Shown piece after piece: positions 1,058 to 9,930 of a stretch of 10,700 bases of DNA (positions are counted from its first letter, which is position 1; each line of letters opens with the position of its first letter). Source of the stretch: Candidatus Iainarchaeum sp. (GTDB lineage Archaea; Iainarchaeota; Iainarchaeia; Iainarchaeales; JAAZKV01); contig JAPLVQ010000074.1 in the NCBI GenBank assembly GCA_026397035.1, positions 2,510 to 13,209 on the forward strand, in the 5' to 3' direction. Under the pieces are notes generated by a model that was not told where the DNA came from, searched no databases, and was given only the letters and a program-made list of their open reading frames with translations. A program made the translations under genes and the position numbers.

Positions 1058-1078
1058 CGCTTTTTGTCTTATTTTGTA

Positions 1079-1468
1079 ATGTTTAACGAGTTTCTCAAGG
1101 ATGCTGTTCTTGCCATTAGTGCGAATCATTCTCTTAATGAGAAGATTTCTTTTGCTCTTTCTCCTCTTCGTGCCCAAAAAGCCCCTGATTCAGAGGAATT
1201 AATGGTTGTCCCTGTTTTTAAAAAAAGTCCCTCTTTTAGTGTTGCTGGGGTTGATAGCGGTTTTGCTTCAAAGCGTCTTTCTTTTATGGAGCTTCTTTTA
1301 GTAAAAACTGCAGGAGTTGTTTTTAACTTCAAAAATGGTTCGCTTGTTTCTTCCATTTACTATCCGACTCCGTTTTCTTTTCCCAAGCCTCTTCTTTTGC
1401 GTCAGGGTCTTGAGCGTGACGAAGAGGCGCAAAGTATTTCTCTTATTCGGTTAAAGGAACGCAATTGA
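1079..1468 (+). CDS. nurA: NurA-type 5'-3' nuclease, N-terminal part (frameshifted)
   Basis: NurA is the nuclease partner of the HerA helicase in archaeal DNA-end resection. This frame carries the first part: an N-terminal helix region, then PSFSVAGVDSGF near residues 51-62, which matches the first conserved Asp motif of NurA (D59 here), followed by a beta-rich segment and the helix LIRLKE near the frame's end. The natural continuation (AIEVIQKFKPEF, then FIDGS) lies in the next frame, and the TGA at 1466-1468 closes this one after two foreign residues. Skipping one base near 1460 joins the halves. ATG 1079 is preferred to an upstream in-frame TTG at 1064 because it fits the promoter spacing. 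HerA lies about 3.5 kb downstream on the same strand. Confidence 0.75.
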   Translation: MFNEFLKDAVLAISANHSLNEKISFALSPLRAQKAPDSEELMVVPVFKKSPSFSVAGVDSGFASKRLSFMELLLVKTAGVVFNFKNGSLVSSIYYPTPFSFPKPLLLRQGLERDEEAQSISLIRLKERN

Positions 1469-2201
1469 AGTTATTCAAAAATTCAAACCCGAGTTTATGT
1501 TCATTGACGGTTCTATTGTTCCGCAGTATCAGGATAAGCCACGGGGTGATTCAGAGCTTAATAGTGACTATCATTCCATTATTACTCTTTTTGCGCGTCT
1601 CTATAAAGTGGCTGAGCAAAATTTTACGACTCTTGTTGCGTGTGTTGAGGATTCACGGGGGACTCGTTTTAGACAGATTTTGCAGGATGATATTCTTTCA
1701 AAAGATTCTTCTTCAACCCCTTCTTCGCAAAACTCCCTTAATCAAAAAAACCTTTCTTCAAAAATTCAACTCTCCGCTTCTATATTAAACAGCTCTTTTG
1801 ACGCGTCTATTCTTGATTATTATTTGCGTCAGGGTGAAAGAACTTTTGCTTTCTCTTACACTAATTCACCTAGTTCGCACGCGATTTTGAAAGATTATTC
1901 TCCTGAATGGGCTAAGAGTGTTTTTGTTTTTTATCTCAAAGCGACAGAATTTGATCGTCCTCTAAGAGTAGAATTTTTGTGCAAGGATAAAAATAATCTC
2001 AAAGAGTGCGCAAACAGAATCGCTTCAATAGTTTATTCCTTGAGTTCTCTTCACAGAGAATATTCTTTTCCAAGTATTCTAATCGAAGCCGATTTGCGTG
2101 CGGGTCTAAGTGAACAGGAAATTAATGTAGTATATGAAAGGTTAATAGATAAGCTCGGCTCTAAAATAAGGATGCGGAGAAACAATAGGCCGTTTGGGTG
2201 A
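1461..2201 (+). CDS. nurA: NurA-type nuclease, C-terminal part (second frame)
   Basis: This frame is open from 1455 and continues the NurA homology with AIEVIQKFKPEF and then FIDGSIVPQY (from 1500), the second conserved Asp motif. A standalone reading would have to start at ATG 1497, next to the catalytic Asp and without a GGTGA site, so independent translation is unlikely. The C-terminal part (about 1960-2190) resembles the NurA tail: RVEFLCKD, a helix, then FPSILIEADLRAGLS. Many NurA proteins have a catalytic His in that last motif (an Ala-His pair after Pro), and here the position appears to be Asp, which could still bind metal. The TGA at 2199-2201 overlaps the ATG of the next gene by one base, indicating translational coupling. 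With both halves joined the protein is about 375 residues, normal for NurA. Confidence 0.75.
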   Translation, partial: AIEVIQKFKPEFMFIDGSIVPQYQDKPRGDSELNSDYHSIITLFARLYKVAEQNFTTLVACVEDSRGTRFRQILQDDILSKDSSSTPSSQNSLNQKNLSSKIQLSASILNSSFDASILDYYLRQGERTFAFSYTNSPSSHAILKDYSPEWAKSVFVFYLKATEFDRPLRVEFLCKDKNNLKECANRIASIVYSLSSLHREYSFPSILIEADLRAGLSEQEINVVYERLIDKLGSKIRMRRNNRPFG

Positions 2202-7268: not shown

Positions 7269-7297
7269 AACGTATTCTAGTTTATTAGTTGATAATA

Positions 7298-7690
7298 ATG
7301 CCTTTAAAGAGAAAGAGTTTTGTTGTGCCTTTTTTGAATAAAGAGGGGATTGAATCCAAAGTGGCAGGGCATTTGAAGGATGCTGGAGTGAATTTTCCGA
7401 AAAGTAGTGCTTTTTTTGGGTTGAGGGGATTAAGAAAAGTGAAGTTTGGAATTTTGCTTGATGAAATTACTACAAAAGAAAGGGCGGTCATTGTGCAGGA
7501 ATCAATTGCAAAGCTTGAACCGGTTGAGACAAAGGCAGTTGAATTAGTTTTTGGTTTTAGCGAGGCTGGCGCGGTGGATAAAGCGGTTGCGGCAAAGCAA
7601 ATGGGATTGTCCTTAGAGGATTTTAATATTTTGCTTTCGGTTGCAATTGCAAAGCTTGCTTCTAATAAAAAGTTGAAAGAGTTTGTTTGA
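7298..7690 (+). CDS. Protein with sigma-70 region 4-like helix-turn-helix
   Basis: This protein has 130 residues. The C-terminal part (about 71-130) follows the pattern of bacterial sigma-70 region 4: a helix KLEPVETKAVELVFGFSEAG (LxPxExxVxxLxFG in the family), a helix AVAAKQMGLS (the family's EVGxxLGVS), then LEDFNILLSVAIAKLASNKK and KLKEFV (RVRQIExxALxKLRHP and LREF in the family). Archaea use TFB/TBP instead of sigma factors, so this would be a stand-alone HTH of that fold. The N-terminal 60 residues contain an FFGLRGLRKVKFG segment of unknown role. It could be a transcription regulator of the surrounding repair genes, which is inference. It lies between herA and the polymerase-like gene. 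ATG 7298 fits the TATA spacing; an upstream TTG at 7289 is less likely. Confidence 0.65.
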   Translation: MPLKRKSFVVPFLNKEGIESKVAGHLKDAGVNFPKSSAFFGLRGLRKVKFGILLDEITTKERAVIVQESIAKLEPVETKAVELVFGFSEAGAVDKAVAAKQMGLSLEDFNILLSVAIAKLASNKKLKEFV

Positions 7691-7731: not shown

Positions 7732-7766
7732 CCACCGGCAATTCACTTCCAAAGCGTATTTAAATA
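7732..7766 (+). promoter_or_regulatory. Promoter of the polymerase-like gene, with shared 16-base element
   Basis: CCACCGGCAATTCACT (7732-7747) precedes GTATTTAAATAA (from 7756), a strong TATA box 31 bases before the ATG at 7787. Transcription would begin at or next to the ATG, so the gene is probably leaderless. The 16-base element also lies before herA (5526) and, in weaker form, before nurA (1025). Confidence 0.6.
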
Positions 7767-7786: not shown

Positions 7787-9556
7787 ATGTCCCAACACAA
7801 TATTGAGGACAAGAGTCAGCCGGATTCTTGTCAAAAGAATGGCTTTTCGCCTGCGCTTTTGCGCCCGCGCTCAATTCTTTACTTGACTAAGGTTTCCTAT
7901 AATGAACCTAAGCATGAGGTTTTGGTTGAGTTTTCTTGTGAATCAGAGCGTTTTGTAAAAAGAGAAAAGTTTTTCCCGTTTATTTTATTTTCACCGTCAA
8001 TCGAGAAGGACAAACTGCAGTCTCTGCTTCTTTCTGCTGGTTTTAAGGGTTTTAGCCTTGAAGTTAGCGGCCAATTTTTGTGTCTGCGTGCTTTGTCCTT
8101 CTCTGAATTGAAAAGGATTAGTAATTCACTTGCTGTTTTTATTAACAAGAAACCTTTAGTGCTTGAGCCCGAGCGTGTATATTTACTTTCAAAGGGTTGG
8201 AGTTTTTTTGATTCTTTTGAAAAGATTGATGATTTTCTGTACAAGCTTCCAATAGTTACTCAAAATTCAAATAGTCTGCAAAACTCAAATAATTTGGGAA
8301 ATTCAAGTAATTTAAAAAGCTCAAATAGTTCTAAAAATGTAAATAACTTAGGAAATTCAAAGAAGTTCCAAAATATTCCTGACCTTGGTTTTTTCCTTAC
8401 TAAAGAGATTCCTTTCAAAGAGGCTTTGGAGTTGTCTAGAGAGGATGTTTTGCATTTAGTAGAGCTTTCAGCGTGGAGTAATTTGCTTTCGGTTCCGTTA
8501 AGTAATATCCCAAAATCAAAAGGGGAGCGTCTTGAGCTTTTCATTGAGAATTTGTTTTTCAAGAATGGTGAATTGCTTTCTTTTGATTCGAGTTCAAGAT
8601 TTTATTCAAGTAATGGTTTTGAGCCGCTTGGAGGGGTAGAGCCTTTATCAAAGCTTGATTTTTCTTTTGTCTGGACAGAGCTTTTCTCAAATACTTTTTT
8701 TAATATTGGTCCCGAGACCAGGAATTGTTCTTGTTGTTCTCCCGCTCTTCTTGAAGCAAAAAATCTCTTGCCTTCTTCATTAATTTTGGTTCGCTTTTTA
8801 GGTGATAATGTTTTTTTTGAATCAAGTTCTGAGAGTTTTGCGAGTTCTTTTCATTCTTCCCGTCCGTTTAAGGATTTGCGTGTTGCAAAGAGAAAAGAAT
8901 TTTTCCTGAATTCTTTTCCAATAGGTCCTTTTTTTAGGGAAGATTCTGTTCTTCTTCCTCTTCTTGATGCTAGGCGCTTGATTTCGGAGGGTAAAGTAGT
9001 GCTTGTTTCTAGTAAGGGTGTTTCGTATTCACAAACCCAAAATGAATTAAAACAAATTAATTCCCAAAAAAACGCTTCTTCCCAAAATCAGCTTCCTTTT
9101 CATGACTTGAATTGGTTTTGCTTGAATAAGGAAAGCTTTTTCTCAAAAGAAATTCGTTCCTCAACCGAAGTTTTATTAAATTTGCGTTTTATTCTTGATT
9201 CGAATGGTGATTCGCTTTTTTCTTCAAAAGATTTTTCCGCGTTTTATTTAGACTTTCTTCATAGTGCTTTGTCTTTTTCGCTTGCTAACATCCCTAATCA
9301 GTTAACAAATTCAGAGTCAAAGTTTTTTTCTACCGCGCTCGCAAAGGGTATTATTTCAGTTCAGGAAGCTACTATTGCGAAGTTCAAAGAGTTTTCAGAA
9401 AAGAGGGGTTATCGTGTTTTGCACGCGAATAAGAGCGCGGCGTTTGTAAAGGGTTTTGATTCTTTAAAACTCGCAAAGGAGTTTGCTTGTTCTTCTAACC
9501 TTCCGCAGCCGATAGTTGCTGGTTTTTCAAGTAAAAGAGCGCTTGGGTTTGCCTGA
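7787..9556 (+). CDS. Inactive family-B DNA polymerase-like protein lacking exonuclease and thumb
   Basis: The 589-residue protein aligns in order with archaeal family-B polymerases but is reduced. Residues 28-150 match the N-terminal domain (FFPFILFSP, LEPERVYLLSKGWSFFDSFEKI). The 3'-5' exonuclease domain is missing; in its place lies an Asn/Ser linker (159-197). Residues 215-262 match the palm entry (AWSNLLSVPLSNIPKSKGERLELFIENL). GGVEPLSKLDFSFVWTEL (282-299) corresponds to motif A (LDFxSLYPS), keeping D291 but losing the SLYPS residues. GPETRNCSCC follows, as in archaeal polymerases. Residues 495-556 match motifs B to C; the DTD of motif C is NKS (548-550), so catalysis is unlikely. The protein ends just after the palm with no thumb. 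A scaffold or regulatory role with HerA-NurA is inference. The start is set by TATA spacing; no GGTGA is present. Confidence 0.7.
   Translation: MSQHNIEDKSQPDSCQKNGFSPALLRPRSILYLTKVSYNEPKHEVLVEFSCESERFVKREKFFPFILFSPSIEKDKLQSLLLSAGFKGFSLEVSGQFLCLRALSFSELKRISNSLAVFINKKPLVLEPERVYLLSKGWSFFDSFEKIDDFLYKLPIVTQNSNSLQNSNNLGNSSNLKSSNSSKNVNNLGNSKKFQNIPDLGFFLTKEIPFKEALELSREDVLHLVELSAWSNLLSVPLSNIPKSKGERLELFIENLFFKNGELLSFDSSSRFYSSNGFEPLGGVEPLSKLDFSFVWTELFSNTFFNIGPETRNCSCCSPALLEAKNLLPSSLILVRFLGDNVFFESSSESFASSFHSSRPFKDLRVAKRKEFFLNSFPIGPFFREDSVLLPLLDARRLISEGKVVLVSSKGVSYSQTQNELKQINSQKNASSQNQLPFHDLNWFCLNKESFFSKEIRSSTEVLLNLRFILDSNGDSLFSSKDFSAFYLDFLHSALSFSLANIPNQLTNSESKFFSTALAKGIISVQEATIAKFKEFSEKRGYRVLHANKSAAFVKGFDSLKLAKEFACSSNLPQPIVAGFSSKRALGFA
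8261..8377 (+). repeat. Asn/Ser-rich degenerate repeat linker within the polymerase-like gene
   Basis: Residues 159-197 of the polymerase-like protein consist of repeats around NSNNLGNSSN, encoded by degenerate TCAAATA/GGAAATTCAAG units. The linker occupies the place where the exonuclease domain would be. It looks like low-complexity expansion filling a domain loss, not a CRISPR or operator array. Confidence 0.6.
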
Positions 9557-9710: not shown

Positions 9711-9903
9711 TTGGTTAGGTTGACAAGGTTTGAATTTACTAGAGTGCTTTCGGCTAGGGCATTACAGCTTTCTTTGGGCGCTCCTCCTTTAGTTAAGCGT
9801 ACCGGAGAAGGAATTTGCTCAAAAGGTTTTGCCGCTTAGTGTTTTAAGAAAATACCCTAACGGGAATTTAAAGCGTGTGGAATTATTTGATGTTTCGAAT
9901 TAG
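9711..9903 (+). pseudogene. rpo6: RNA polymerase subunit Rpo6 (RpoK), interrupted by +1 frameshift
   Basis: Rpo6 is the archaeal counterpart of bacterial omega and eukaryotic RPB6 and helps assemble RNA polymerase. From TTG 9711, five bases after GGTGA, the first frame reads LTRFEFTRVLSARALQLSLG and then APPLVKRTGE, matching the family's TRFE...ARALQLSLGAPPLV core. It then derails and stops at TAG 9837-9839. The next frame continues with EFAQKVLPLSVLRKYPNGN and LKRVELFDVSN, ending at TAG 9901-9903, which matches the family's C-terminal LPLxVxRxxPxG motif. Skipping one base near 9810 joins the two parts into about 63 residues. Because Rpo6 is essential, a sequencing error or decoded frameshift is more likely than true loss, unless another copy exists. 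Confidence 0.8.
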
Positions 9904-9930
9904 TTTTTTGATGTTTTTTGGTGATTGAAA

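Follow-up and report, generated by a model that had tools for sequence, protein, structure and literature searches.

The window analysed here, 10,700 nt from a Candidatus Iainarchaeum sp., belongs to a genome of 1.29 Mb that is 77% complete and lies in 188 contigs. It raises a question in three parts: whether the 589-amino-acid protein encoded downstream of herA descends from a family-B DNA polymerase (PolB), whether it could still copy DNA and, if not, for what such a gene is kept. A sequence-only reading had seen in it a catalytically dead PolB, possibly a repair or replication factor. The gene, an uninterrupted open reading frame (ORF) with an ATG start that we read as an inactive PolB derivative, is called dPolB below. 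The features of the window to which the text refers are the following.

1064..2201 (+): NurA, in two frames in the assembly (1064-1468 and 1497-2201), both pieces matching the NurA of locus L091
5656..7203 (+): HerA (Pfam DUF87, E 4.7e-27)
7757..7766 (+): A/T-rich box TATTTAAATA, promoter-like by eye, 21-30 nt upstream of the dPolB ATG
7787..9556 (+): dPolB, read as an inactive PolB-derived gene, 589 aa (ORF; PolB homology by profile and fold)
7874..8248 (+): N-terminal domain, PolB-N-like, residues 30-154 (score above shuffles; folds well in the model)
8258..8380 (+): Asn/Ser low-complexity linker, residues 158-198, with an 18-nt imperfect tandem repeat
8387..8572 (+): helices ahead of the palm, residues 201-262, matching the post-exonuclease stretch of PolB (hhalign, model)
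8645..8683 (+): motif A region, residues 287-299, Asp 291 retained, SLYPS gone
8726..8737 (+): CxCC, three of the four invariant cysteines (314, 316, 317; 27/27 members)
8744..9016 (+): putative GINS-B-like domain within the palm, residues 320-410 (not in 26 active PolBs)
9017..9088 (+): second low-complexity loop, residues 411-434 (pLDDT <50; a gap in most relatives)
9113..9121 (+): WFC with the fourth invariant cysteine (445; 27/27 members)
9122..9304 (+): long helices at the position of the fingers, residues 446-506 (hhalign, model)
9305..9529 (+): C-terminal part of the palm, residues 507-581, with the motif C site at 9428-9436 reading NKS

Three details of the window concern other genes. 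The second NurA piece matches Pfam NurA (E 1.7e-5) and the first has no Pfam NurA match; relatives carry a single ORF of about 360 amino acids, and the split may be an assembly error or a real break. A 133-aa ORF (7289-7690) without a match in a Pfam search lies between herA and dPolB. At about 9715-9905, a stretch named RpoK-like by eye shows a frame change relative to L094 (7611-7901).

As a single sequence, dPolB gave nothing significant in Pfam or among PDB sequences, with one sub-threshold MRS2-like match in the former. A dPolB match was found in 48 of 53 related genomes, and 27 members, window copy included, were aligned (A1; L007, L008 and L024, cut or masked, were omitted from the 30 family loci), as were 26 active PolBs of the same set of genomes (A2; L035, L039, L044 and L054 omitted from 30 loci). 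Searched against 177,635 PDB sequences, the A1 profile retrieved three matches with E<=10, all of them family-B polymerases (best 5mdn, E 0.0041). When A1 was compared with A2 by hhalign, the two matched with a probability of 98.1% (E 1.1e-13) over 241 columns running from the helices ahead of the palm to past motif C and skipping one insertion. The N-terminal domain also aligns in order with that of PolB, scoring 29.7 where none of 50 column shuffles exceeds 19.2; this match is weaker, however, its hhalign probability being just 22.5% in local and 51.1% in global mode. Thus the in-order alignment from the N-terminal domain through the palm that had been proposed is strong for the palm and less so for the N-terminal domain. 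The AlphaFold2 model (pLDDT 79.8, pTM 0.78) agrees with the profiles: the fold search returned 205 matches with E<=0.001, and the best 50 PDB rows were all family-B polymerases (best E 4.5e-11), by title archaeal enzymes or engineered variants, with modest TM-scores of 0.43-0.48 by query length.

Other searches added little to this. NCBIfam gave weak PolB names in at most 4 of the 27 members, and Pfam gave Gins51_C in two (best E 0.11), a lead only. An isolated OKR_DC_1_N match in one member (Pfam E 0.00086) was judged to be due to chance. As to a phage origin, no tblastn match was obtained at E 0.01 among 50,697 phage records, and the viral matches of the fold search were likewise polymerases, which is uninformative on origin. 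In a tree, the 27 members plus a longer relative from genome G086 form one clade, apart from 27 active PolBs; the tree is midpoint-rooted with long branches, prints no support values, contains no PolB2 sequence and names no parent. That dPolB is an inactive derivative of PolB is, in our view, close to certain.

How complete is the loss of catalytic function? Motif C reads NKS in the window copy (residues 548-550), as had been noted; conservation of an NKS-type motif C in related genomes, which would have marked a dedicated inactive family, was not found. What the 27 members share is the absence of DTD: there is no D-x-D and no conserved acid at the site, whereas 25 of the 26 active PolBs have DTD and one has DSD. 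Motif A had been said to have lost SLYPS, which is true (found in none of the 27); its aspartate is retained in 23 of 27, including D291 of the window copy. The motif B residues are lost in the family. PolB columns ~140-346, i.e. the exonuclease, have no counterpart in the dPolB profile, nor do the columns past 605, which bears out the missing thumb. The Asn/Ser stretch (~158-198) had been taken for what replaced the exonuclease. It is private to the window genome and, since the 26 other members are without the linker and without the exonuclease too, it is no replacement; in the model this stretch and the loop 411-434 have pLDDT <50. Alignments and predicted model together show that DTD, the exonuclease and the thumb have been lost. 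An active but unusual enzyme, for instance one with a shifted metal site, would be in keeping with the retained motif A aspartate, and very weak activity has been reported for one PolB2 (PMC4104785); but with neither a D-x-D nor a conserved acid at motif C in any member, and with the motif B residues and the thumb gone, we regard continued catalysis as very improbable.

An intact PolB is present elsewhere in 49 of the 53 genomes, and the truncated architecture recurs in 66 of the 75 genomes of the order. Given these two facts, dPolB is not a working PolB distorted by errors. The active PolB of the window genome itself is in pieces on a contig with a gap; it has SLYPS, and its motif C is intein-split into YGD and TDS (L158, contig C17, with an intein-like insertion between the two). 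Several relatives have PolB ORFs of more than 1,200 amino acids.

The distribution was derived from a profile search of 87 genomes of the phylum. There were matches in 73, from which six were removed as matching an active PolB ORF only (G017, G025, G057, G060, G081 and G083). The family is thus found in 67 genomes, those 66 of the order (Diapherotrites-type archaea, tiny and uncultivated; G038 was counted from a piece at a contig end) and G086. Among order genomes at least 90% complete, 20 of 22 have it; nine of the 75 do not, two of which are at least 90% complete. The named genomes with relatives are Candidatus Diapherotrites, records of the Candidatus Iainarchaeum type, archaeon GW2011_AR10 and a few others, two being labelled Micrarchaeota. 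A motif scan of named genomes returned 15 loci, 14 of the dPolB family and one active PolB (L105); since its patterns were strict, it is a weak test of absence elsewhere.

Two kinds of relatives lie outside the order. G086, from elsewhere in the class, encodes a 905-aa ORF of uncertain start that matches the family with E 2.7e-35 in the genome search, lies downstream of HerA and faces a Rad50-like gene. It has additional sequence at the position expected for the exonuclease; calling this a decayed exonuclease is a reading by eye, because neither this protein nor three f21 proteins had a Pfam match and the G086 protein alone found no PolB in PDB. In family f21 of the same class, a 338-372-aa protein directly follows HerA, so that it and the G086 protein occupy the same place. 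By hmmsearch, the match of the f21 protein is weak (E 3.5e-5 to 0.0025, four-sequence set), but by hhalign its four members match A1 with a probability of 94.8% (E 5.2e-8, score 65.3; maximum 21.7 in 60 column shuffles). It occurs in 6 of the 87 genomes, all among the 10 f21 genomes, with a HerA match on the same contig in at least five of the six. The f21 loci (L141 5632-6645, minus strand; L143 2911-4026, plus strand; L144 5765-6874, minus strand) look like a further-reduced form of dPolB, without the cysteines. Together, these relatives suggest a stepwise decay, from a long form with a region at the exonuclease position (G086) through one without it (the order) to one that is shorter still (f21).

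Decay may raise the suspicion that the gene is a relic without function, and its high divergence, lost motifs, absence from nine order genomes and private low-complexity repeat in the window copy could be quoted in support. The signs of constraint largely refute this. The A1 alignment has twenty-two invariant columns across 27 sequences, four invariant cysteines among the conserved features, and the place near HerA is kept in most genomes (see below). For two of eight pairs, those with dS <1, dN/dS is 0.235 and 0.353, the remaining pairs being near or beyond saturation. In the measurable pairs, then, dPolB looks to be under purifying selection and the gene looks constrained; a mere relic is extremely improbable.

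The conserved features include two that the sequence-only reading had missed or understated, the invariant four-cysteine site and the insert that it encloses; the conserved place beside NurA-HerA is the third. The four cysteines (CxCC and WFC) are present in 27 of 27 members, with the insert (residues 320-410) between the third and the fourth. At the same positions the 26 active PolBs have C in 25, H in 21 (C in 4), C in 23 and C in 25, and all 26 are without the insert. The Hadesarchaea PolB of L105 (4531-7122) likewise has NCSCCKP and FC without an insert. A C/H-C-C...C palm cluster is therefore carried by active archaeal PolBs, as seen in L105 and in the PolBs of the order. We take the cysteines of the Pol epsilon CysX motif and those of the dPolB site to be arranged alike. 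Archaeal PolBs are described in PMC7544198 as having no detected metal-binding domain.

What the insert resembles is the B-domain of GINS. Compared with the Gins51 B-domain, it scores 30.9 (84.0%, E 7.5e-6), over just 30 columns. The controls are clearly lower: at most 17.7 in 50 shuffles, and at most 11.7 for nine other A1 windows and 12.0 for 17 A2 windows, while the two A1 windows that cover the insert reach 31. The published pair of GINS-B and the C-terminal domain of PriS (PriS-CTD; PMC2861644) reaches 35.7 in the same comparison. Folded alone, the insert has a pLDDT of 91.1 and the order E-E-H-H-E-E-H-E. A strand-helix order of this kind is described for GINS B-domains, Sld5 having one helix between strands 2 and 3 (PMC2861644). 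With GINS-B and PriS-CTD the insert shares this order and, in its second half, the pattern G-P-F ... (I/L)P ... A ... L (PMC2861644), but it differs in the pair of helices that separates strands 2 and 3 and in its location inside a polymerase palm. In the fold search, the first 11 PDB matches were GINS, CMG or archaeal replication-protein entries, the matched chains of which we infer from titles and lengths to be GINS subunits; at the top is 5ghr_B (prob 0.99, TM 0.71 by the 55-residue target, rmsd 2.9). The related entry 5GHS is the nuclease GAN with Gins51C (PMC5484177).

Several results count against homology with GINS-B. Only 30 columns are aligned; the probability drops to 63.4% against whole Gins51, and to 53.3% and 23.5% in whole-profile comparisons with GINS; against PriS-CTD the score is 22.5 and the probability 13.7%; the best E of the fold search is just 0.07, none reaching 0.001; and in a profile search of PDB, Psf2 comes third (E 1.2), after two unrelated matches. 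(For these comparisons L069 was omitted from the 30 Gins51 loci, and the PriS ends were taken from 24 of 30 loci.) The evidence from profiles and predicted structure for a palm insert with a GINS-B-like fold is good, not final, and we consider it likely that the insert is a true homolog of GINS-B. A side product of the Gins51 search is a weak Gins51_C match in a 436-aa ORF directly ahead of Gins51 (G012 C1 11420-11548; G046 C40 2245-2373), which is probably the PriS C-terminal domain.

The gene neighbourhood is the main pointer to function. Among the HerA matches listed, HerA lies on the same contig and within 6.4 kb of dPolB in 55 of the 67 genomes, with dPolB downstream on the same strand in 54 and on the opposite strand once (G020). 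In the single-contig genome G012 the two are 113 kb apart; of the other 11 genomes, HerA is on another contig in six and five have no HerA match among those used. The count uses one HerA match per genome (two for G086) and mostly leaves out long DUF87 ORFs. For G011 and G018 it takes the match on the dPolB contig, not the top-scoring one. Such choices can bias a few genomes towards nearness, and the gaps are measured between matched domains, not gene ends. NurA is on the dPolB contig in 45 of the 67. The nearness to herA that had been remarked on is therefore general, although in the window the 133-aa ORF intervenes. The apparent likeness of the dPolB promoter to that of herA, which had been noted as well, is one judged by eye. 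In three loci (L091 4763-5905, L102 4755-5903, L149 3066-4208) a membrane-protein gene, by eye a Ca/Na antiporter, is found between HerA and dPolB. A Rad50-like gene faces dPolB in 9 of the 11 regions read; it does not in G012, nor on the window contig, of which 1.1 kb remains past dPolB. Of the Rad50-like proteins, four were scanned: they match Rad50 models of NCBIfam best, in every case under the curated cut-offs, and a zinc hook is above the Pfam cut-off in two.

By this conserved neighbourhood, dPolB is a gene partner of NurA-HerA. Three observations weigh against a functional partnership: dPolB is absent from nine order genomes, and all four of these inspected (G013, G025, G027, G060) retain NurA-HerA, so dPolB is not required for NurA-HerA everywhere; it is far from HerA in G012; and in the window its own A/T box and the 133-aa ORF separate it from herA.

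Could the protein instead belong to the replication fork? A dead PolB might sit in the replisome with CMG or with active PolB or PolD, its insert engaging GAN or MCM as GINS does, comparable to the inactive half of Pol epsilon, which interacts with CMG (PMC7544198); its proximity to HerA would then be an old neighbourhood that persisted. The GINS-B-like insert could serve such a factor equally well and, since PolD DP2 was found in all 19 and Gins51 in 51 of the 53 genomes examined for them, there is a fork to bind. But it is near HerA that the gene is kept, and no replication genes stood out in the regions read (G012 left unannotated), which makes a fork factor rather unlikely. Another possibility is a regulator of active PolB or of PCNA, for instance a non-catalytic dimer partner. 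The same proposal was first made for PolB2 (PMC2527604), and an active PolB does accompany dPolB in most genomes; the absence of the thumb and a neighbourhood of NurA-HerA rather than PolB make this improbable.

The nearest described family is PolB2 (Dpo2). Like dPolB, it is an archaeal PolB paralog with disrupted catalytic motifs that occurs beside an active PolB and is suspected of a role in repair or replication (PMC2527604, PMC4104785). The same papers describe PolB2 as highly conserved overall, with the distal Asp of motif C in place and the exonuclease disrupted, and put it near a RadA paralog and arCOG07300; the neighbours recorded for dPolB are NurA-HerA. In dPolB, compared on the basis of those publications, there is neither exonuclease nor thumb, motif C is free to vary, with no conserved acid in place of the distal Asp, and the GINS-B-like insert is present. 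The inactive C-terminal half of Pol epsilon is another dead PolB that acts as a scaffold (PMC7544198, PMC2669801), but it forms one polypeptide with an active PolB and acts alongside CMG (PMC7544198), while dPolB is a separate gene beside NurA-HerA. The P-domain of the active half, as described there, resembles the dPolB insert in being a palm insertion at the base of which lies a cysteine motif; P-domain and CysX are said to be confined to Pol epsilon orthologs, and the main text of that paper contains neither Diapherotrites nor HerA (PMC7544198). A viral case, likened here by description, is chordopoxvirus F12, a DNA polymerase said to serve another role; it is implicated in virion morphogenesis (PMC4304020). 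In the open-licence literature searched, no description of a HerA-linked PolB was found. PolB2 is the closest described relative, with a different architecture and different published neighbours, and dPolB is an inactivated PolB with an architecture and a gene context that we did not find described. Both tests proposed with the sequence-only reading, a search against PolB profiles and structures and a survey of related genomes for the truncated form, came out in favour, and they support its interpretation as a non-catalytic repair or replication factor.

NurA and HerA, with Mre11-Rad50, resect DNA ends (PMC9960219, PMC3820547). From the neighbourhood, dPolB probably works together with NurA-HerA, its presumed partners, and on balance we favour an inactive PolB acting as a structural partner in their DNA-end processing. 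The most likely part for it to play is that of a non-catalytic scaffold in resection, again assuming these partners. Beyond anatomy and neighbourhood, we infer the steps of the mechanism. The remaining N-terminal domain and palm may bind the DNA end or a single-strand/double-strand junction, and a partner may dock on the GINS-B-like insert. The best candidate for this partner would be a RecJ-family nuclease of the GAN/Cdc45 kind, because the archaeal Gins51 C-terminal domain binds such a nuclease: it binds the RecJ-like GAN in the same way as Cdc45 is bound by the Psf1 B-domain, and GAN is stimulated by Gins51 (PMC5484177). In Deinococcus, RecJ is bound and stimulated by HerA, and NurA competes (PMC4663267). 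DHH-family matches were found in 19 of 19 genomes, 18 above the cut-off, that of the window genome being short and sub-threshold. Docking of a RecJ/GAN-type partner is a tentative suggestion. The HerA-linked PolB body and its insert would then form an adaptor between translocase, DNA end and RecJ-type nuclease, and dPolB might help to decide which strand gets cut, or pass on the resected 3' end.

In a fuller scenario, which we regard as doubtful, the palm of a PolB acquired a GINS-type B-domain, after which the protein gave up catalysis and shed its exonuclease and thumb. It would now serve archaeal NurA-HerA resection as a third component, holding a Cdc45/RecJ-type nuclease on the translocase in such a way that one strand is cleaved and the 3' end survives. 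We know of no polymerase-GINS chimera; if the scenario were true, dPolB would be one, and would parallel, in archaea, the inactive half of Pol epsilon. For the NurA-HerA complexes of S. solfataricus and P. furiosus, both tails are reported to be degraded; a 3' tail in archaeal resection may depend on associated factors, and such proteins, Mre11-Rad50 among them, are suspected of settling the outcome (PMC9960219). For the usable 3' tail of archaeal NurA-HerA, dPolB would be a concrete candidate for a missing part. The family suggests an old copying enzyme turned into a structural part of a repair machine, and it would be another route from DNA polymerase to scaffold.
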